Origin: an uncultured Pseudomonadota bacterium
Lineage (GTDB): Bacteria > Myxococcota_A > UBA796 > JAFGLY01
DNA length: 64,000 bases
Assembly (NCBI GenBank): GCA_937912125.1
Contig: CALDOK010000389.1
Location: 1-64,000 of the forward strand
Reading direction: 5' to 3'
Below are positions 815-37,677 of the stretch, one piece after another (the stretch's first letter is position 1; every line of letters begins with the position of its first letter). Under the pieces are notes generated by a model. It ran no database searches. It was not told where the DNA came from and saw only the letters and a list, made by a program, of their open reading frames with translations. The translations under genes and the position numbers were made by a program.

Positions 815-3046
815 TCAGCGGCGGCGCCTGATCCCCGCGCATCCCACCAAGGCCATCAGCGCGAGCCAGGGCGCGGCCGCCTGGCGCCCGCTCGCGCAGC
901 CGCCGCAGCCCTCGTCCGGGAAGCGCAGGCCGGGCGGGTCATCGCCGGAGTCGTCGGAGTCGTCGGCGGGGACGCCGTCGGTGTCGTCCGGGTCGTCACC
1001 AGCGGTCCCGCCCCCGGCGATGCGCAGGGTGGAGTAGTAGCGGTCGCCGTCCCAGCCCGAGGCGTCGGACCACTCCGGCCCGGTGATCTCCGTGCTCAGC
1101 TCGGGCGCCAGCCAGCAGCTCAGGCCCTCGGGGCCCCGGGCGCAGAGATCGGCGTCGCCGTCCCCGTCGATGTCCGCCGTGCGCAGGGTGGAGTAGTAGC
1201 GGTGGTCGTCCCAGCCCTGCTCGTCGGACAGGGCCGGCCCCTCGTGGGAGCTGCCGAAGCCTGCGCTCGCGCCCTCCCAGGGCCACCAGACCACCCCGGC
1301 GTCAGCCCGGGCCAGCAGGTCGAGGTCGCCGTCGCCGTCGAGGTCCGCGAGCTGCAGGGTGGCGTAGTTGCTGTGGTCCCCCCAGCCGCTGCTGTCGGCC
1401 AGGGCGGGCCCGTCGATGGCGTCGCCGAAGGTCACGCTGGCGCCGCTGCCCTCGGAGAGGTGGCAGGTGAAGGTGGTGGGGGAGCGGCCGCAGAGATCGG
1501 CCCGCCCGTCGCCGTCGACGTCGGCCATGCGGATGGTGGACCAGCTGCTCACGTCGTCCCAGCCGGCGTCATCGCTCCAGGTCGGGGCGCCCGCTACGGC
1601 CTCGAACGCCGCGCTCGCGCTGTCGTCGGAGGAGCGCCAGCAGTACTCCCTGGCGCCGCCGCGGGCACAGAGGTCTTCCCGGCCGTCGCCGTCGATGTCT
1701 CCCATGCGGATGGTGCCGTAGTAGCGGGGCCACACCCAGCCGAGCGCGTCGCTCAGGTCCTCCATGGCCACGGCGTCGCCGAAGGTCACGCTCGCGCCGC
1801 TGCCGGTGGAGGGCCAGCAGCGGAAGCCCGCGGCGGCACGGGCGCACAGGTCGTCGCGGCCGTCCCCTGTGATGTCGGCCAGCCGCAGGGTGCTCCAGTG
1901 ATCGATGCCGTCCCAGCCGGAGTCATCGCTCAGGGCTGGTCCCTGGATGGCCTGGCCGAAGCCGCCGTAGCTCCCCAGCCAGCACCGCACCCCGTCGGCG
2001 CCTCGGGCGCAGACGTCGGCGGTGCCGTCGCCGTCGAGGTCACCCCAGCGCAGGGTGCCGTAGTGCCGCTCGCTCGAGAACCCGTCGTCGTTGGACAGAT
2101 CCGCCAGCTCCCAGCGGGCCGGGAAGGCCGCGCCGGTGGAGCGGTAGCAGAGCAAGCCCGCCGCGGCCCGGGCGCAGGCGTCGGCCAGCCCGTCGCCGTC
2201 CACGTCCGTGGAGCCGCCGTCGAGCAGGTGGGCGTCGATCACCACGTCGTCCAGCCAGAAGTCGCAGCTCTCGGGGGCTCCTGTGCCGTCGGCCCAGACC
2301 GCCAGGTGGTTGGCCACGGTGCGCTCGGAGCCGTCGGATGGATCGTTGAGCACGCCGTTCGCGGCGGTCCAGACGGCCGACGATCCGCCGCCGTCCAGGT
2401 TCAGGGCCGTGTCGGCGCCCAGGTCCACCATCAGTGCGCCCAGCTGCTGGCAGGTCATGCCGTCGCTGCTCGAGGAGCGTCCGTCCACCACCACCATCCA
2501 CAGGGTGCGCCGGTCGGCGGACAGGCCCACGGCCGAGCGCGGGTTGAGGCTGGTGCAGTGGCTGGGGGCGGAGGTGTAGGAGGACAGGGCCACACCGCCC
2601 TCGACCAACTTGGGGAAGCCGCCCACGGCCTCGTCCATCCAGTCGGCGGGCTCGGCCCAGGTCTCCACCGGGTCGCTGATCCATGTGTGGTCCCGGCCGA
2701 AGGCGATGAAGCCGTTCCAGTCGTTGTCGGCCCGCCAGTACTCTCCTGCGCCCACGGCCATGCCCGTGGGCCAGTAGCCGTCGTAGGAGAAGAAGTCGCC
2801 GTTGATGGCGGCCTGGGCGCCCACGAGGCCGGCGAAGGACGAGACCGTGCGCTGACGCTCGCCCTCCTGGGTGGCGCGCACCTGGATCCCCCGGGCGCAG
2901 AGGTCCACCTCGAGGGCGTGGATCTGGTTGGGGTCCGCCGTGGTGCGGTGCAGGTAGCGCACCCCCGGGTGGGGGTCGGTCCAGGTGTCCGTGGCCTGGG
3001 CGGAGGGGGCCAGCAGCAGGGGGAACAGCCAGACGCTCGGGTTCAT
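815..3046 (-). CDS. Phosphodiester glycosidase-like (NAGPA) FG-GAP protein with MYXO-CTERM anchor
   Basis: 743 aa from the ATG at 3046, which begins a clean signal peptide (MNPSVWLF to about residue 18); longer upstream starts lack one. Residues about 40-253 fit the phosphodiester glycosidase / NAGPA family: AINGDFFSYDG (80-90), NPRSAVG (168-174), VVVDGR (186-190) and NLDGGGSS (216-223). Seven FG-GAP/VCBS repeats follow (D-x-D-G-D-G-x-A-D-L-C-A-R pattern), then an Asp-rich linker and a MYXO-CTERM-like end: GCGGCA, a hydrophobic helix, and RRRR. In known members the domain removes sugar phosphodiester caps; the substrate here is unknown. Probable location is the outer surface after myxosortase-type processing. 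It is divergent from the amidase and converges stop-to-stop with the gene at 2-814. Confidence 0.8.
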   Translation of the reverse strand: MNPSVWLFPLLLAPSAQATDTWTDPHPGVRYLHRTTADPNQIHALEVDLCARGIQVRATQEGERQRTVSSFAGLVGAQAAINGDFFSYDGYWPTGMAVGAGEYWRADNDWNGFIAFGRDHTWISDPVETWAEPADWMDEAVGGFPKLVEGGVALSSYTSAPSHCTSLNPRSAVGLSADRRTLWMVVVDGRSSSSDGMTCQQLGALMVDLGADTALNLDGGGSSAVWTAANGVLNDPSDGSERTVANHLAVWADGTGAPESCDFWLDDVVIDAHLLDGGSTDVDGDGLADACARAAAGLLCYRSTGAAFPARWELADLSNDDGFSSERHYGTLRWGDLDGDGTADVCARGADGVRCWLGSYGGFGQAIQGPALSDDSGWDGIDHWSTLRLADITGDGRDDLCARAAAGFRCWPSTGSGASVTFGDAVAMEDLSDALGWVWPRYYGTIRMGDIDGDGREDLCARGGAREYCWRSSDDSASAAFEAVAGAPTWSDDAGWDDVSSWSTIRMADVDGDGRADLCGRSPTTFTCHLSEGSGASVTFGDAIDGPALADSSGWGDHSNYATLQLADLDGDGDLDLLARADAGVVWWPWEGASAGFGSSHEGPALSDEQGWDDHRYYSTLRTADIDGDGDADLCARGPEGLSCWLAPELSTEITGPEWSDASGWDGDRYYSTLRIAGGGTAGDDPDDTDGVPADDSDDSGDDPPGLRFPDEGCGGCASGRQAAAPWLALMALVGCAGIRRRR

Positions 3047-3116
3047 GGGCACCTCGACCTGCGCGGCGCTTAACGCGTCGGCTGGTGGTGGGGCGCGGCG
3101 CCGAATACGGACTCCC

Positions 3117-4562
3117 ATGCTCTCTCTGCTCCAGGCATCAGCCACTCAGCTCGCCGCGCGCATGCGTCGGGGCGAGATCGATCCCATCGACGTCGTCGAG
3201 GCCCACATTCGGCGCGTGCAGCAGGTCAACCCGGTCCTGAACGCGCTGGTGGCCGATCGCTTCGACCAGGCCCGGGCCGAGGCTCGCGCGGCGGGGCGGC
3301 GCATCCGTCTGGCCGCCGACGGCGAGGTCTTGCCGCCGCTGCTGGGGGTGCCCTGCACGGTCAAGGAGTTCGTGGCGGTGCAGGGGATGCCGTGGACCGC
3401 GGGCATCGTGGCCCGGCGCGGGCGCCTGGCCGGCGGCGACGCCACGGTGGTCCAGCGGCTGCGGGCGGCGGGAGCCATCGTGCTCGGGGTCACCAACATG
3501 GCCGAAGGTGGGCTGTGGATGGAGGCTCGCAACCCGATCTATGGCCACACCCGCAACCCCTGGGATCTCCGCCGCACCGCGGGGGGCTCCAGCGGCGGCT
3601 GCGGCGCTCTGGTGGCCTGCGGCGCGGTGCCCTTCTCCATCGGAGCCGACATCGGCGGCTCCATCCGCATCCCGGCGGCCTTCTGCGGCGTCACGGGCCA
3701 CAAGCCCAGCGGGCGCATGGTGCCCACCACCGGTCACCTGCCACAGCCCCACGGCCAAGCCCGCGCGCTGCTGTGCCTGGGGCCCCTCGCCAGGCGCAGC
3801 GAGGATCTGCTCCCGCTGCTGCGCATCATGGCGGGTCCCGACGGGTTCGATCCCGTCGCCCGTGCTTTCCCACTCGCGGCGGACGAGCCGGCGCTGGAGC
3901 CTCGGGAGCTCGAGGTCTTTCCGGTCGAGGACCACCTGGGGGTGGCCATGTGGCCCGAGGCCCGCGAGGCCGTGCGCCGCGCGGCGCGGGCCCTCGAGGC
4001 GCTGGGCGCCAAGGTCCACCCACCCGACGCCTTGTCCCTGGGCAACGGGGTGTTGCCCTGGAGCGCAGCCCTGATGGTCCCCGGCGGCGAGCGCTACCGG
4101 GAGATCCTGGGGGATGGCCGCACCATCCCCCTGGCTCGCGAGGCCATGCTGCGGGTCATCGGGCGCAGCCAGCACAGCGGCCTGCCCCTGGTGGTCTGCC
4201 TGCTCGAGGCCTTGCTGGGCGGCATCCCCAGCGACTACGAGCGCGCCATGGTGCGCCTGGCGCAGCGTCGCCAGGCCCTCGAGGTGCGCATGGGCCCCCG
4301 CGCGGTGATCCTGCACCCCCCCTGGAGCCGGCCGGCGCCCCACCACCGGGCCGCGTTCCTGGGCCCCCTGGACTGGGTCTGCACGGCCCTGTTCAACGTC
4401 CTCGAGCTGCCGGCCACCGTGGTGCCGGTGGGCTCGGGCCGCCACGGCCTGCCCACGGCGGTGCAGGTCGTGGGCCGCAGGGGCGATGACGCCCGCACCA
4501 TCGCCGTGGCTCGCCTGCTCGAGCGCCAGCTGGGCGGCTGGGTGATGGCCGAGCCTCGCTGA
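3117..4562 (+). CDS. Amidase signature family hydrolase
   Basis: 481 aa; ATG at 3117. Amidase-signature enzymes hydrolyse amide bonds with a Ser-cisSer-Lys triad. All three residues are visible: Lys83 (CTVKEF), the cis-Ser in GGSSGG (Ser158), and the nucleophile in DIGGSIRIP (Ser182). The pattern around them, with a later HKPSGRMVPTTGH, is closest to the fatty acid amide hydrolase branch rather than GatA, because no GatB/C genes are nearby. No signal peptide is seen, so it is probably cytoplasmic. It diverges from the glycosidase-like gene across a 70-base gap and converges with the Ser/Thr kinase gene 12 bases downstream. Substrate unknown. Confidence 0.88.
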   Translation: MLSLLQASATQLAARMRRGEIDPIDVVEAHIRRVQQVNPVLNALVADRFDQARAEARAAGRRIRLAADGEVLPPLLGVPCTVKEFVAVQGMPWTAGIVARRGRLAGGDATVVQRLRAAGAIVLGVTNMAEGGLWMEARNPIYGHTRNPWDLRRTAGGSSGGCGALVACGAVPFSIGADIGGSIRIPAAFCGVTGHKPSGRMVPTTGHLPQPHGQARALLCLGPLARRSEDLLPLLRIMAGPDGFDPVARAFPLAADEPALEPRELEVFPVEDHLGVAMWPEAREAVRRAARALEALGAKVHPPDALSLGNGVLPWSAALMVPGGERYREILGDGRTIPLAREAMLRVIGRSQHSGLPLVVCLLEALLGGIPSDYERAMVRLAQRRQALEVRMGPRAVILHPPWSRPAPHHRAAFLGPLDWVCTALFNVLELPATVVPVGSGRHGLPTAVQVVGRRGDDARTIAVARLLERQLGGWVMAEPR

Positions 4563-27892: not shown

Positions 27893-29818
27893 GTGTCCTT
27901 GTTCCTCGTCCTCCCGATCCTGGCCTTCTCCGCGGGCGCGGAGTCGCTGCTGAACCCGCCCCCGGGGCTGCCCGCGCCGGACCTGTCCCATCGCCCGGTC
28001 CTGGGAGTCCAGGCCCTGCCCCCCGTGCCCGCCCTCGAGGTCCGGCCGGAGCTGCTGGTGCTCACCACCGATCAGCTGGCCGCCGACAGCCGCGTGCTGC
28101 CGCGCTTCATGGCCTTCCGTGCTGCCGAGGGCTGGGCCGTGGATCTGGCCACCGAGGCCGACTGGGATCGCAGCACCGGCCAGGCCGCCGACAGCCGCCA
28201 GGACCGCATCCGCGCCTACCTGCAGGACCGCTACGCCACCGACCCTGGCGCCAGCGTGCTGCTCATCGGCGATCCGGATCCCGCGCTGGGCGACCTGCCC
28301 ATGCTCAACAGCTACCCGGTGGAGAGCCTGACCCGGTACTACCCGGACTCCACCGCCGACAACATGAGCCCCGTGCCCACGGACTTCTTCTACGCCGAGC
28401 TCTCCGGGGACTGGGACTGCGACGGCGACGGTCAGCCCTGGGATTACCCGGACGACGCCGACTGCATGGACCTCGAGCCCGAGCTGTTCGTGGGCCGGCT
28501 GCCTATCTACGGGGGCGACGCCTTGGCCCTGGACGCCTTGCTCGAGCGCACCCTGGCTCGGGATCTCGAGGCCGACAAGAGCTACCGTCTGCGGGCGCTG
28601 CTGCCTGGGGCGCTGTTCGGTGTCGCGGGTGGATCGAGCGCCTCGGGGGGCGTCTACCCCGAGCACCAGGACGGCGCGGGCGTGCTGGCCGCCCTGTACC
28701 AGGACCTCCCTGCCGCCTTCCAGCAGCAGGCGCTGCGCCTCTTCGAGGGCCAGGGCCTGCTGCCCAGCCCCTACGCCCGGGACCTGGATCTGAGCCGCGA
28801 CGCGCTGGTGGAGCAGTGGGCTCAGGGCGCGGGCCTGGTGATCTGGGCCGGACACGGCTGGTACGACTCGGTGCACCGGGTGGTGTGGGACGGCGATCTC
28901 GACGGTGACGGCCTGGGGGACGACGACGAGATCAGCTCGCCCGCCTTCCTCGACAGCTCCGACACGCCCGACCTGCGAGAGGCCGGGGGCGCGTTCACCT
29001 GGCAGATCTCCTGCGACAACAGCTGGCCTGAAGACGCAGACAACCTCTCCACGGCCATGCTCACGGGGGGCGCTGCGGGCGCCGTGGGCTCCACTCGGGT
29101 CAGCTACGGCTCCACCGGCGAGTTCGGCGAGCCCTGGGAGCCGCGGCCCGACCTGGCGGGGGGCACCACCGCCGCCTACCACTACGCCCTGCTGCTGGCC
29201 GAGGGCGCCACGGTGGGCGAGGCGCTGATGTGGACCAAGTCCGAGCTGCCCGGCGACGGCTGGGGCAAGGTCTACGAGGAGATCGACTGCACCGGCTTCG
29301 CCTGGGCCACCCGCGCGGAGTTCAACCTCTACGGCGACCCCACCCGATCCCTCGAGCTGTGCGAGCTCGACGCCGACTGCGACGACGGCAACGCCTGCAC
29401 GGGCCTCGAGCGCTGCAGCGCGGGCTTCTGCGTACACCAGGACGTGCCCGACTGCACGCATCTGGACAGCGAGTGCAGCGCCGGCCTCTGCGATCCCGAT
29501 CTGGGGGCCTGCGTGGCCCAGCCCCTGCGGGACGGGGCCAGCTGCGATGACGGCGCCTGGTGCAGCGAGGACGACTTCTGCAGCGAGGGTGTCTGCGGCG
29601 GTGAGGCCCGGGACTGCGGCAGCCGCGAGGGCTGGGAGGCCAGCTGCGACGAACAGGCAGACCAGTGTGCCTGGAGCGAGCTGGACGCCGAGGGGCCCGA
29701 CGAGGAGGACGAAGGTGGCGGGCTGTTCGGTTGCAGCGCCACTCCGCGGCGGGGGGGCTGGCTGCTGGGGCTGCTGGCGCTGGGCTTGGCGTCGCGTCGT
29801 CGGGGTCGGGGCCGTTAG
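27893..29818 (+). CDS. C25 (gingipain-like) cysteine peptidase with MYXO-CTERM anchor
   Basis: 641 aa; GTG start five bases after AGGAGG. Signal peptide MSLFLVLPILAFSAGA. The caspase-fold C25 domain spans about 45-490, with catalytic His321 in VIWAGHGWYDS and Cys374 in QISCDNSW, the His and Cys arrangement known for gingipains. An acidic, probably calcium-binding DGDLDGDGLGDDDE lies between them. A Cys-rich segment of EB/EGF-like spacing follows (DDGNACTGLERCSAGFCVHQ), then an acidic linker and a MYXO-CTERM tail: FGCSATPRRGG, hydrophobic helix, SRRRGRGR. Probably a surface-anchored or released protease. It sits in an operon with the upstream lipoprotein and probably the downstream SGNH gene. 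Confidence 0.88.
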   Translation: MSLFLVLPILAFSAGAESLLNPPPGLPAPDLSHRPVLGVQALPPVPALEVRPELLVLTTDQLAADSRVLPRFMAFRAAEGWAVDLATEADWDRSTGQAADSRQDRIRAYLQDRYATDPGASVLLIGDPDPALGDLPMLNSYPVESLTRYYPDSTADNMSPVPTDFFYAELSGDWDCDGDGQPWDYPDDADCMDLEPELFVGRLPIYGGDALALDALLERTLARDLEADKSYRLRALLPGALFGVAGGSSASGGVYPEHQDGAGVLAALYQDLPAAFQQQALRLFEGQGLLPSPYARDLDLSRDALVEQWAQGAGLVIWAGHGWYDSVHRVVWDGDLDGDGLGDDDEISSPAFLDSSDTPDLREAGGAFTWQISCDNSWPEDADNLSTAMLTGGAAGAVGSTRVSYGSTGEFGEPWEPRPDLAGGTTAAYHYALLLAEGATVGEALMWTKSELPGDGWGKVYEEIDCTGFAWATRAEFNLYGDPTRSLELCELDADCDDGNACTGLERCSAGFCVHQDVPDCTHLDSECSAGLCDPDLGACVAQPLRDGASCDDGAWCSEDDFCSEGVCGGEARDCGSREGWEASCDEQADQCAWSELDAEGPDEEDEGGGLFGCSATPRRGGWLLGLLALGLASRRRGRGR

Positions 29819-30802: not shown

Positions 30803-31720
30803 TCAACCCGTGGCGGTGTAGCCTGGGCCTGTGCCGTAGCCGTGTTGCCCTGCCAGCAGATCCAGGTGGAGGCTCAGGATGTCCTCGGCCACGGGGACCA
30901 CAGCGGCGCCGGGAGCCAGCCTGCGCTCGTCCACGGTCTTGATCGCGCCCTGGCAGGCGTCACAGGTCTCGATCCAGGCGCTGTCCTGGTCGTCCAGGCG
31001 CAGGAAGGCGAGCTGCTGCTGGTCGTCGCTCCCACAGCGCGGGCACCCGATGCGCGGGTACTGCCAGGAGGAGCCACACAGGCCGCAGTGCAGGTGGCGC
31101 TTGCCCTCGCCCTGGCGGCTGAGCGTCGCGAGGCCCGCTGGGCTGCCGCAGTAGGGACAGGCGCCCGTGGGTCGACCGGCGGCGGCGATGTGATCGGCGC
31201 TCACCAGGCGGGTGGCCAGGGCGAGGAAGGGCGCCGCCAGGGTGCGGCCCAGGAAGCTCACGGCTTGGATGGGGGCGCCGAAGCGGGCGGCGATGGCCTC
31301 GAGGTCCTGAGGATCGGCCTGGATGGCGGCACGGGCGAGCTGCGCCAGGAACAAGGGCTCGTCCACAGCTGCGGCCTCGAGGGCGTCCAGGGCGTCGCTG
31401 GGCTGGCCCAGCGCTCGGGTGGCGGCCACCATCGCCAGCCACAGCTCGCCCATGGGCTGGGCAGGGAGGTCGAAGGCATCGAGGGCCAGCAGGGGGCCGC
31501 CGAGGGCGGGGGGGGTGCTCAGGGCGGGGAGCGTGGAGCAGAGGCCCTCCAGCACCGCGACCTGGGCGCCCAGCACGGCCTGGCGGAAGTCGAGCCAGGC
31601 CGGGGAGCTCTGGTCGAGGCCCCGGGCCGCGGCGAGCCGGGCGGCGAGCGCCACGAGGCCGGGCTCGTCCATGGGCTTGGCGGGGGTGATGCCGTGGGGA
31701 TTGCTGGACTGGGGGGCCAT
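30803..31720 (-). CDS. fdhE: Formate dehydrogenase accessory protein FdhE
   Basis: 305 aa, matching the family length. The C-terminal half has the FdhE zinc-ribbon/rubredoxin-like cysteines as four pairs: CPYCGSP, HCGLCGSSW, CPRCGSDD and CDACQGA. FdhE is a cytoplasmic chaperone that binds the catalytic subunit and is required for activity of Tat-exported respiratory formate dehydrogenases. It lies 83 bases downstream of fdhB on the same strand, completing fdhA-fdhB-fdhE. The ATG at 31720 is the only good start; a clear Shine-Dalgarno is not visible. Confidence 0.92.
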   Translation of the reverse strand: MAPQSSNPHGITPAKPMDEPGLVALAARLAAARGLDQSSPAWLDFRQAVLGAQVAVLEGLCSTLPALSTPPALGGPLLALDAFDLPAQPMGELWLAMVAATRALGQPSDALDALEAAAVDEPLFLAQLARAAIQADPQDLEAIAARFGAPIQAVSFLGRTLAAPFLALATRLVSADHIAAAGRPTGACPYCGSPAGLATLSRQGEGKRHLHCGLCGSSWQYPRIGCPRCGSDDQQQLAFLRLDDQDSAWIETCDACQGAIKTVDERRLAPGAAVVPVAEDILSLHLDLLAGQHGYGTGPGYTATG

Positions 31721-31803: not shown

Positions 31804-32655
31804 TCAGCGCTTGGTCGCCTTGCGCTCGGCCAGCCTGCTGAGGCCCGCCGCCAGCAGTCCACCGGCGGCCAGGGCCGCCATGCCGGGACCACCTGCGGTG
31901 CGCACGGGCACGGGCTGCTGCGCCTGCCAGGCCGCCCAGGCGCGCTGAGCTTCGCGCCGGATGGTACCCATGTCGGCCTTGGCCTCGACGATGCCGTACT
32001 GAGCGAAGGGGCCGGGCAGCACGTAGATGGAGTGCAGGCCGCCGTGCTCCTCGACGCCGTAGACCGTGACCTCCTTGCAGCCGGCCTTCTTCAGGGCGGC
32101 GGCCTGGGCCTGGGCCTTGGCCACCATGTCGGCGCGCGGGCCGTAGTCCAGCGCGTCGGTGCAGCAGGTGTTCACACAGGCGGGGGAGAGGCCCTCGGCC
32201 ACGCGGTCCACACAGCCGGTGCACTTGCGGGACTTCTTCGCCTCGGGGTCTACGTGGGGAACGCCGTAGGGGCAGGCCGCCGCGCAGGCGCCACAGCCGA
32301 TGCAGCGCTCGGCGTCGACGGTGACCGTGCCGTACTCGGTGCGGTGCATGGCCTTGGGGCCGCCCTCTTCGGCGGGCTGCACCGGGCAGGCCTCGATGCA
32401 CTTGGCGTCGGTGCAGTGCATGCAGGTCTCGCGCCGGAAGAACCACTTGACCCCGCAGTCGTCGCAGGCCAGCTCGTGGAACTTGATCAGCGTCCAGGTG
32501 CTGGCGGACAGCGCCGCCGGGTTCTGGTAGCCGCCGGGCGCCGCGAAGAACTCGGTCTTCTCCGCGGGCAGCTGGTTCCACTGCTTGCACGCGACCTGGC
32601 AGCCGCGGCAGGCCATGCACAGAGAGCCATCGTAGTAGAAGCTGTTGTCAGCCAT
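31804..32655 (-). CDS. fdhB: Formate dehydrogenase iron-sulfur (beta) subunit
   Basis: 283 aa. It carries electrons from the catalytic subunit through four [4Fe-4S] clusters. Four Cys groups are visible: CMACRGCQVAC (Cys13-Cys23), CDDCG with CMHCTDAKCIEACP, CIGCGACAAACPYG, and CTGCVDR with CVNTCC. The C-terminus ends in a hydrophobic stretch (about 250-275) followed by RLAERKATKR, like the membrane anchor helix of FdnH/FdoH. Its ATG is one base after the fdhA stop, with AAGGAGG inside the end of fdhA, so translation is coupled. No cytochrome b gamma subunit gene is nearby. Confidence 0.93.
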   Translation of the reverse strand: MADNSFYYDGSLCMACRGCQVACKQWNQLPAEKTEFFAAPGGYQNPAALSASTWTLIKFHELACDDCGVKWFFRRETCMHCTDAKCIEACPVQPAEEGGPKAMHRTEYGTVTVDAERCIGCGACAAACPYGVPHVDPEAKKSRKCTGCVDRVAEGLSPACVNTCCTDALDYGPRADMVAKAQAQAAALKKAGCKEVTVYGVEEHGGLHSIYVLPGPFAQYGIVEAKADMGTIRREAQRAWAAWQAQQPVPVRTAGGPGMAALAAGGLLAAGLSRLAERKATKR

Positions 32656-32656
32656 C

Positions 32657-35600
32657 TCAGGCCTCCTTCGTGATGTTGCAGAGGAACGCCTTGAACTCGG
32701 GGATCATGGTGTTGGCGTCGCCCACGTGCGGGGTCAGGTCGTTCGCCGTGGCGCCTGTGGCCAGGCCTCGGTAGCCGAAGTGCCAGATCATGCCGACCTG
32801 GTGGACCGTCTTGCCGCTGACCACGAAGGGCCGCAGCCGCTTGGTGACCACCGCCCGCAGGGGGATGGCACCACGCTTGGAGCTGACGGTGACCATGTCG
32901 CCGTTGGCGATGCCCTTCTCGGCGGCGAGCTCTTCGGACATCTCCACGAAGGGCTCGGGCACCAGCTCGTTGAGCCAGGGCAGGCTGCGGGTCATGGCGC
33001 CGGCCTGCCAGTGCTCGGTGACGCGGTAGGTGGTGGCCACGATGGGGAAGTCGGTGCTGTTGCCGACCTCTTCGGGGTGCCAGATCTTGATCACCGGGCT
33101 GTTCTGCTGGCCCGACATGGCGTTGTCCACCGGAGACTCGAGGGGCTCGTAGTGCTCGGGCAGGGGGCCGTCCACGAGGGAGTTGGCGAACAGGCAGGCG
33201 TGGCCTTCCTTGCGCATGATGAAGGAGTACTTGGCCTTGTCGTCGGGGGTTCCGTCCTCCTGCAGCATGGGGGGCCAGCCGCCGTCGGGCACGTCGCCCC
33301 TCCACTTGCCGCTATCGCGGTCGAAGGCCACCACGGGCTTGTCGGGGGCCCAGGGGTGGCCCTTGGCGTCGCAGCTGGCGCGGTTGTAGATGATGCGGCG
33401 GTTGACCGGCCAGCACCAGGACCAGTTGGGGTTCAGCCCGATGGGGTCTTCTTCCGGTGTGGACGCGACGCGCTTGGCCAGGCGGTTGACGGGCTGGCCG
33501 TCCTCGAGGACATAGCTGCCGCAGTACAGCCAGTTGCCGGAGCAGGTGGAGCCGTCGTCCTGCAGGAAGGCGAAGCTGGGGACCAGGTCGCCCTTCTTGT
33601 ACAGGGTGCCCTTGACCTCCTTGTCCTCCGTGAACCAGCCGTTGATGTGCTTGGCCACGGCGTGGGCGTCGGGCTCTTCGGTCTCGCCATAGGGCCAGTG
33701 CAGGTTGAGGATGGGATCGGGCAGGGCGCCGCCCTGGGCGTACAAGGCCTTGAGGCGGGCCTGCAGCTGAGTGAGGATCCAGAGGTCGGACTTGGACTCG
33801 CCCACGGGCTCGATGGCCTTGTAGCGCCACTGACCCCAGCGACCGGAGTTGGTGACCGAGCCTTCCTTCTCGACCGAGCCGGCTGCGGGCAGCATGAAGA
33901 CCTCGGTGCCGATGTCGGCGGTCACGGCGCCGGGACGCTGCCAGAAGGCCATGGACTCGGTCTCCCAGAGGTCGACCGCCACGTACCAGTCCAGCTTGCC
34001 CAGGGCGCGCTTCTCGAGGGTGGCGTTGGGGCCGCCCACGGCGGGGTTCTGACCCAGGGTGATCAGGCCCTTGATGCGCCCCTTGTCCATGGCCTCGAAC
34101 AGGGCGATGTGGGAGTAGTTCTCGCTGCGCTTGGGCAGCCACTCGTAGGCGAAGTCGTTCTCGGCGGTGGCCGCGTCGCCCCAGAATGACTTGAGCAGGC
34201 TGACGGTGTACTTCGAGTAGTTACCCCACCAGTTGGCGCTCTTGGGGTCGTTGGTGGTGGGGGTCCACTTGTCCAGGTAGGCCTGCAGGCTCGTGTTGTC
34301 CGCCGTGGGGCACTTGAGGTAGCCCGGGAGGATGTGGAACAGCAGGCAGTGGTCGGTGGAGCCCTGGACATTGGACTCGCCCCGCAGGGCGTTGATGCCG
34401 CCGCCCGCCACGCCGATGTTGCCCAGCAGCAGCTGCAGGATCACGTAGCTGCGGATGTTCTGGGTGCCGTGGGTGTGCTGCGTGGTGCCCATGGCGTACA
34501 TGATCGTGCCGGACAGCTCGGGCTTGTTGCACTCGGCGTAGGTCTTGGCGACCTCCTCGAGCTTGGCCTTGGGGCAGCCGGTGATGTCGCTGGCCATGTC
34601 CAGGGTGTAGCGAGCGAAGTGGGCCTTGAGGAGCTGGTAGACGCAGTTGGGGTCCTGCAGCGTGGGGTCCTTGAGGATCACGCCAGCGTCGTCGACCTGG
34701 AAGTCCCAGCCCTTCTTGTCGTAGGCACCGTCCTTGATCTTTCCGAACAAGCCCTCTTTGAACCTGAACTTCTTGTCTACCAGGAACGACGCGTTGGTGT
34801 GGGCCACCACGTAGTCCTTCTGGATCAGGTCGTGGTCGAGCACGTACTTGATCATCGCGCCGATGAACGCGATGTCGGTGCCAGAGCGCAGGGGGGCGTA
34901 GATGTCGGCCTTGGACGAGGTGCGCGTGAAGCGCGGGTCGACGGAGATGAGCTTGCCGCCGTTGTCCTTGGCCTTCATCACGTACTTGAAGCTGATGGGA
35001 TGGTTCTCAGCGGCGTTGGAGCCGATGATCATGATGCGGTCGGCGTGCTGGATGTCGATCCAGTGGTTGGTCATCGCGCCGCGACCGAAGGATGCCGCCA
35101 AACTGGCGACGGTGCTGCTGTGTCATATGCGGGCCTGGTGCTCGAGGAACACCACGCCCAGGGCGCGCGCCAGCTTGGAGTAGGTGTAGCACTCCTCGTT
35201 GTCCAGGGCGGCGCCGCCCATGCAGGCGATGCCCTCGGTGCGGTTGATCACGCGACCCTGGCTGTCGGTGGTCTGGAAGGTCTCGTCGCGGGTGGCCTTG
35301 ATCTTCTCGGCGATGCGATCGAGGGCCCAGTCCCAGGACTTCTCTTCCCACTTGTCCGAGCCTGCGGCCCGGTACTTGACGCCCGTGAGTCGGCGCTCGT
35401 TGTTGGGGACCTGGTACAGGGCCGAGCCCTTGGCGCACAGCGACCCCTGGTTGATGGGGTGGTCCGGGTCGCCCTCGGTGTTGATGACCTTGCCATCGGC
35501 TGCCGTGACCAGCAGGCCGCAGCCTACGCCGCAGTAGGGGCAGATGGTGGTGGTGACCTTGCCCTTCTTGGGGGTGGCTTGCTGGGCGTAGGCTGCGCTT

Positions 35601-35689
35601 GGGCGCAGATCGAGCCCCAGGAAGCCCAACGCGCCTGCAGCGCCCGTGGCGCCGGCCGTGGCCAGGAAAGTCCTGCGTTGCATCTTCAT
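32657..35689 (-). CDS. fdhA: Formate dehydrogenase catalytic (alpha) subunit, selenoprotein
   Basis: 1010 aa if the TGA at 35123-35125 is read as selenocysteine (residue 189); E. coli FdnG is of similar size with Sec196. Start ATG 35689 begins a Tat signal (QRRTFLATAG, cleavage near AYA about residue 35). A [4Fe-4S] site follows (Cys50, Cys53, Cys57, Cys85: CPYCGVGC...GSLCAKG). Around the UGA the protein reads EHQARI-U-HSSTVASLAASFGRGAMTN, the hallmark of Sec formate dehydrogenases. Mo/W-bis-MGD binding regions follow. It oxidises formate to CO2 in the periplasm. A simple ORF call breaks it into 35123-35689 and 32657-35101. First gene of fdhA-fdhB-fdhE. Confidence 0.95.
35096..35108 (-). promoter_or_regulatory. 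Candidate bacterial SECIS hairpin
   Basis: Just 3' of the UGA on the fdhA message: CGCCA, loop GUU, UGGCG. The loop is about 20-22 bases after the UGA, in the range used by bacterial SelB-binding SECIS elements. The E. coli loop sequence GGUCU is not present, so SelB recognition may differ here. Confidence 0.55.
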
Positions 35690-36825: not shown

Positions 36826-37635
36826 CTAGCTGTCGGTGGGGGTGGGATCGAGGTGGGGACGCATCATGGGGGAGACGTCGTCCACGCAGTTCCGCCCCGT
36901 GGTGCGGGACAGCAGGGTGATGTCCATGATGATCCCGTTGGTGGCCGTGTCGACCAGGGAGGGGTTGGTGGTCCAGACCGCCTGGTTGTCGGCGTAGGGC
37001 TCGGTGCCGCCGATGAGGGCCTCGCGATGGTCCACCACCACCAGGGCCTTGTGGGACCAGGCCGCCTTGGCCTCGTCGCCCTCGACCGTGTCGAGCCAGC
37101 AAGAGAAGCCCGGGGGGCAGCTGATGCCGGAGGCTGGGGAGTAGAGCACCCGGTGCAGGTCCCGGTTGTTCACGGCGTTCAGGGCGTCGAGCACGCGCTC
37201 GAGCTCGCGGGGCCAGATGCTGAGGTAGACCGAGCGCTTGGCTGAGCGGATCATGGTGTCGATCCTGGCCATGACGTCTTCGTAGCGGTGCAGGATCCAC
37301 ACGGGCTCGGGCCGGTCGCGCTTGGGCAGCTTGCCCAGGCTGTCGTTCAAGCTGTCGAGCTTGGTGACCATGCTGCGGCGCATGTTGTCGATGAATGTGG
37401 CCGGGTCGGTGGCGGCGTAGCGCGCGGGCTCGCTGCCCAGGCAGAAGGTGGCGCCGGCGTCCTGCAGCTTGCGCAGCACCGTGTAGACCGCCGAGCGAGG
37501 GATGCCCGAGCGCGCGGCGACCTCGTAGCCGGTGAGCCCGTCGGTCTCGTGGTCTTCGAGCAGGGTGACATACGCCAGGGCTTCGTTACGGGTGAGCCCC
37601 AGCTCCATGAACTTGGCGATGATCATCTCGTGCAA
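36826..37635 (-). CDS. TrmB-family transcriptional regulator
   Basis: 269 aa from TTG 37635, which has GGAG six bases upstream; ATG 37626 and TTG 37647 are alternatives. The N-terminal winged helix shows LGLTRNEALAYVTLLEDH and GIPRSAVYTVLRKLQDAG, the TrmB pattern. The C-terminal half has the PLD-like sensor fold of TrmB proteins, but the HKD motif reads SHKALVVVDHREALIGG, with the first His missing, so it is a ligand sensor rather than an enzyme. TrmB regulators typically bind sugars; the effector here is unknown. An imperfect palindrome upstream (37678-37697) may be its own operator. The Cys-rich lipoprotein gene follows. Confidence 0.8.
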   Translation of the reverse strand: MHEMIIAKFMELGLTRNEALAYVTLLEDHETDGLTGYEVAARSGIPRSAVYTVLRKLQDAGATFCLGSEPARYAATDPATFIDNMRRSMVTKLDSLNDSLGKLPKRDRPEPVWILHRYEDVMARIDTMIRSAKRSVYLSIWPRELERVLDALNAVNNRDLHRVLYSPASGISCPPGFSCWLDTVEGDEAKAAWSHKALVVVDHREALIGGTEPYADNQAVWTTNPSLVDTATNGIIMDITLLSRTTGRNCVDDVSPMMRPHLDPTPTDS

Positions 37636-37677
37636 GGTCGGCTCCAAGCGCCCCGGGTGGGTCGGGGCTTCGTTGTA

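Follow-up and report, generated by a model that had tools for sequence, protein, structure and literature searches.

Some selenocysteine (Sec)-containing formate dehydrogenases, as in Desulfovibrio vulgaris, are two-subunit periplasmic enzymes. For this type of enzyme, the reading of an internal UGA as Sec is well established. Among bacterial selenoproteins, the formate dehydrogenase alpha subunit is the most widespread, with 1276 genes in 822 organisms by 2016 (PMC5029168). Here, we examine a locus of this kind in the window, by which we mean the whole 64,000-nucleotide stretch of DNA that was analyzed. Its fdhA is a real, intact, and ordinary Sec-containing formate dehydrogenase gene, whose UGA at codon 189, judging from sequence, almost certainly specifies selenocysteine, inserted through the usual bacterial pathway. 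The features concerned are the following:

fdhA, 32657 to 35689, minus strand: Sec-containing formate dehydrogenase alpha subunit, 1010 aa, TGA as predicted Sec at residue 189
Sec codon (TGA), 35123 to 35125, minus strand: in HQARI-U-HSSTVA, residue 189 of FdhA
SECIS-like element, 35070 to 35128, minus strand: Rfam SECIS_3, 39.8 bits, E 1.5e-7
fdhB, 31804 to 32655, minus strand: iron-sulfur (beta) subunit, 283 aa, 4Fe-4S dicluster type; TIGR01582, 174 bits, below cut-off
fdhE, 30803 to 31720, minus strand: formate dehydrogenase accessory protein, 305 aa; PF24859 and PF24860 over cut-off

Across residues 3-1008, FdhA matches positions 2-1009 of TIGR01553 (formate dehydrogenase-N alpha) with 1309 bits, against a cut-off of 814.2, and the domains PF04879, PF00384, and PF01568 (Fe4S4, molybdopterin, and MGD-binding) all score over their cut-offs. 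The product has a Tat-like start, MKMQRRTFLATAGATGAAGALGFLGL, with the motif QRRTFL in the sequence and a weak match to PF10518 TAT_signal (19.8 bits versus a cut-off of 22.7). Among solved structures, those most similar to it are chains titled "Formate dehydrogenase, alpha subunit, selenocysteine-containing" (e.g., 6SDR and 9QM0), followed by E. coli FdnG (1KQF); the former chains are from D. vulgaris and 1KQF is from E. coli.

The W/Mo FdhAB enzymes of the D. vulgaris type (6SDR, 9QM0) share with the window an alpha subunit that aligns over residues 2-1008 and carries Sec on the same column, a Tat-like N-terminus, and a separate Fe-S beta subunit. The window differs in that its FdhB may have a hydrophobic helix at the C-terminus and in that fdhE follows directly. 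E. coli FdnG (1KQF) belongs to the same equivalog, TIGR01553, and likewise has a UGA/Sec codon and, immediately 3' to it, a SECIS, whereas the window locus has no gamma (cytochrome b) subunit gene adjacent to fdhA. When a gamma subunit was sought across the genome, none was clear, and the two weak gamma-like matches were below cut-off. The gene order, all on the same strand, is fdhA, then fdhB, then fdhE, and in nearly all homologous loci fdhB adjoins fdhA on the downstream side. FdhE also matches an NCBIfam profile, below the cut-off. Upstream of the fdh cluster lies a gene for a TrmB-like transcriptional regulator (36826-37647, minus strand). Elsewhere in the window, 27893-29818 on the plus strand encodes a 641-aa protein with the C-terminus GCSATPRRGGWLLGLLALGLASRRRGRGR, which resembles a MYXO-CTERM sorting tail; an NCBIfam search with this protein returned zero matches.

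The fdhA frame begins with an ATG at 35689 on the minus strand, and its sole interruption is the TGA at 35125-35123. If this single codon is translated as an amino acid, 35689-32660 encodes 1010 residues, and a terminal TGA stop follows at 32659-32657. The first-pass annotation had located the TGA within EHQARI-U-HSSTVASLAASFGRGAMTN and had proposed that both flanks share one frame and together give a full-length 1010-aa enzyme. The TGA is present on the minus strand as written, in the peptide EHQARI-U-HSSTVASLAASFGRGAMTNHW, and the proposed read-through holds. The interval assigned to the feature, 35096-35689, covers the N-terminal part and the TGA, but the gene goes on to 32657. The same annotation predicted that automated callers will report fragments. 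A plain table-11 ORF caller does split fdhA, into a 227-aa ORF (35806-35123) and an 814-aa ORF with a TTG start (35101-32657). Misannotation of selenoprotein genes is also documented more generally: in one test set, only 195 of 298 were annotated correctly (PMC12013277). By the same figure many such genes are annotated correctly, so "will" is too strong.

One alternative is that a changed code or a suppressor tRNA places a standard amino acid, such as Trp or Gly, at the TGA. Nothing beyond the in-frame TGA itself speaks for this idea, and we regard it as extremely improbable. Specifically, the terminal stop of fdhA is also TGA, and because fdhA itself stops at TGA, wholesale TGA reassignment or a wider code change is rejected.

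The state of this codon in homologues points to Sec. In PDB 6SDR, the modified residue X in HQARI-X-HSPTV aligns with the fdhA TGA, in keeping with the earlier proposal that the TGA falls on the Sec position of Sec-containing formate dehydrogenases. Homologues were scanned in one genome per species across 84,980 species, and 80 loci were kept; the motif was not matched in L066, L096, and L102, and L024 was read on its own. At the 80 homologous sites, the Sec column holds TGA in 71, TGT in 5, and TGC in 4, the last two making nine Cys codons. The site pattern permitted U, C, S, T, A, G, and D, and U and C alone turned up. Selenoprotein families are classically recognized by such switching between TGA and Cys codons. 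Because the same column is TGA at 71 of 80 sites and Cys at the other 9, the fdhA TGA is not a chance occurrence, and homologues that carry either TGA or Cys codons here also argue against a standard amino acid.

A second alternative invokes a nonsense mutation or a sequencing error: fdhA would be a pseudogene, or its TGA a miscalled TGC or TGT Cys codon. In its favor, the closest relative found, L032 (66% identical), has Cys, encoded by TGC, at the Sec site. Against this stand the other 821 codons downstream of the TGA, which are open and conserved, and the fact that TGA is the majority state in homologues. We judge a mutation or miscall to be very improbable, if slightly less so than decoding as a standard amino acid.

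Directly after the UGA lies a candidate SECIS. The SECIS_3 match spans 59 bases (35128 to 35070) and scores 39.8 bits, below the curated gathering score of 63, and shared coding sequence may account for part of the 39.8 bits. The well-formed part of the element is an apical hairpin, GUCGCCA-GUU-UGGCGGC (35110-35094, 7 bp); pairing in the lower stem is poor. Published criteria for bSECIS elements include a 4-16 bp stem, 16-37 nt spacing, and an MFE <= -7.5 kcal/mol (PMC13188914). The fdhA hairpin lies within the published limits, with a 3-nt loop starting with GU, a 7-bp stem, a distance of 19 nt from the UGA, and an energy of -10.8 kcal/mol. Taken alone, it has no significant extra stability over dinucleotide shuffles (z about -1.1), and 26% of synonymous-codon versions are equally stable, a figure that concerns the window sequence alone. 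The Rfam search also returned a mir-1909 match (E 0.88), which is noise.

Comparison across homologues is more telling, with the proviso that the sequences are related by descent and their counts are not independent events. Sec homologues fold better on average than their synonymous variants (mean z -1.46, 62 distinct sequences), whereas Cys homologues fold no better than theirs (mean z -0.05, 9 sequences). Likewise, the mean energy of the post-TGA stretch is -10.1 kcal/mol in Sec homologues versus -6.3 kcal/mol in Cys homologues. Among the 38 distinct Sec homologues with the window-type hairpin, the bases 17 and 29 after the T of the TGA are C-G in 26, U-A in 11, and G-U in 1. The two positions are paired in every one of those 38 and in 56% of Cys homologues. 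The change from C-G to U-A alters two silent third codon positions and is compensatory, constituting covariation at one helix position. A further 24 distinct Sec homologues form a second group, in which the hairpin is shifted, around GCGGCTCTGGCAGAGTC. The helix decays in Cys homologues. In L032, the Rfam SECIS_3 search gave zero matches, unlike in the window, an observation that also counts against a miscalled Cys codon.

The assembly carrying fdhA (G000) is a draft of 9.27 Mb in 527 contigs, 98.9% complete with 5.2% estimated contamination. The first-pass annotation had held that absence of selA, selB, selC, and selD from a complete genome would make the TGA a nonsense mutation; selA, selB, tRNA-Sec, and two selD genes are all present, and the Sec reading withstands this check. 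Specifically, selA is on contig C280 (488 bits) and selB on C232 (264 bits), both over cut-off. The selB product has C-terminal SelB-wing_2 and wing_3 domains; SelB winged-helix domains bind SECIS. One tRNA-Sec scores over cut-off (C25, 60.6 bits, anticodon TCA), and the two selD genes, on C194 and C97, score 361 and 336 bits, also over cut-off. The same assembly has fdhD on C143. Other selB matches elsewhere in the assembly (31-160 bits) resemble other translation GTPases and were left uncounted. A complete Sec machinery speaks against fdhA being a pseudogene, and an ordinary tRNA-Sec with a UCA anticodon speaks against a standard amino acid at the TGA. The sel genes lie on contigs other than that of fdhA; because their loci have a GC content of 0.69-0.73 and a tetranucleotide correlation with the window of 0.91-0.98, it is unlikely that the set as a whole is foreign. 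Codon, codon conservation, hairpin, and all Sec-pathway genes are visible in the DNA itself.

The selD gene on C97 (L011, G000:C97:21992-22924) has its own in-frame TGA, on the minus strand at about 2404-2402, in DCAGUAAK. This is the position at which selenophosphate synthetase is known to carry Sec (UxxK motif), so at least one further selenoprotein is probably encoded in the genome. A search of the Rfam SECIS families at this selD locus returned zero matches. At L010:1417-2736 and 2779-3885 (G000:C194), the other selD carries a putative Se/S carrier domain (PF11823) as an N-terminal fusion and adjoins a class-V aminotransferase of the cysteine desulfurase type, an arrangement that suggests a selenium-delivery cluster.

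On the reading we favor, fdhA encodes the alpha subunit of a putatively exported Mo/W formate dehydrogenase, with codon 189 almost certainly specifying Sec. SelA and SelD would make Sec on tRNA-Sec(UCA), and SelB, on the hairpin directly after the UGA, would deliver the Sec-tRNA to the ribosome. In the mature enzyme, Sec would ligate the active-site Mo/W, and electrons from formate would pass to the Fe4S4 cluster and on to FdhB. Actual Sec insertion, the metal, the catalytic direction, and the electron partner are what we infer here.

Within the lineage, selA scores over cut-off in 77 of the 113 genomes searched, and FdhA at E < 1e-100 is found in 2 of the 113, the window's own and G078. The G078 FdhA is 55% identical to that of the window, and its gene (L024, G078:C90:5833-8955) carries an in-frame TGA. 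A selA search of G078 returned zero matches, and its contamination is 6%; the G078 fdhA may for these reasons be a stray contig. A TGA-bearing fdhA in a genome with no selA match may reflect a missing contig, contamination, or a selenoprotein gene that is truly orphaned. The tree pairs the window FdhA with L032 (100% SH-aLRT), apart from G078. This distribution of fdhA suits horizontal gain or repeated loss. We see about an even chance that the lineage kept its Sec machinery for other selenoproteins and gained the Sec-containing formate dehydrogenase, together with its SECIS, horizontally from a distant phylum. A literature search for Sec-containing formate dehydrogenases in Myxococcota returned zero papers, which, as coverage was incomplete, says little.

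This locus adds a new sequence to a known kind of enzyme, and it leaves the understanding of Sec insertion and of formate dehydrogenases unchanged. The two-fragment report of a plain gene caller is corrected to one fdhA, and one more Sec-containing formate dehydrogenase is added to a lineage in which the enzyme appears rare. If horizontal gain is true, fdhA would provide a formate metabolism that the relatives of this bacterium lack.
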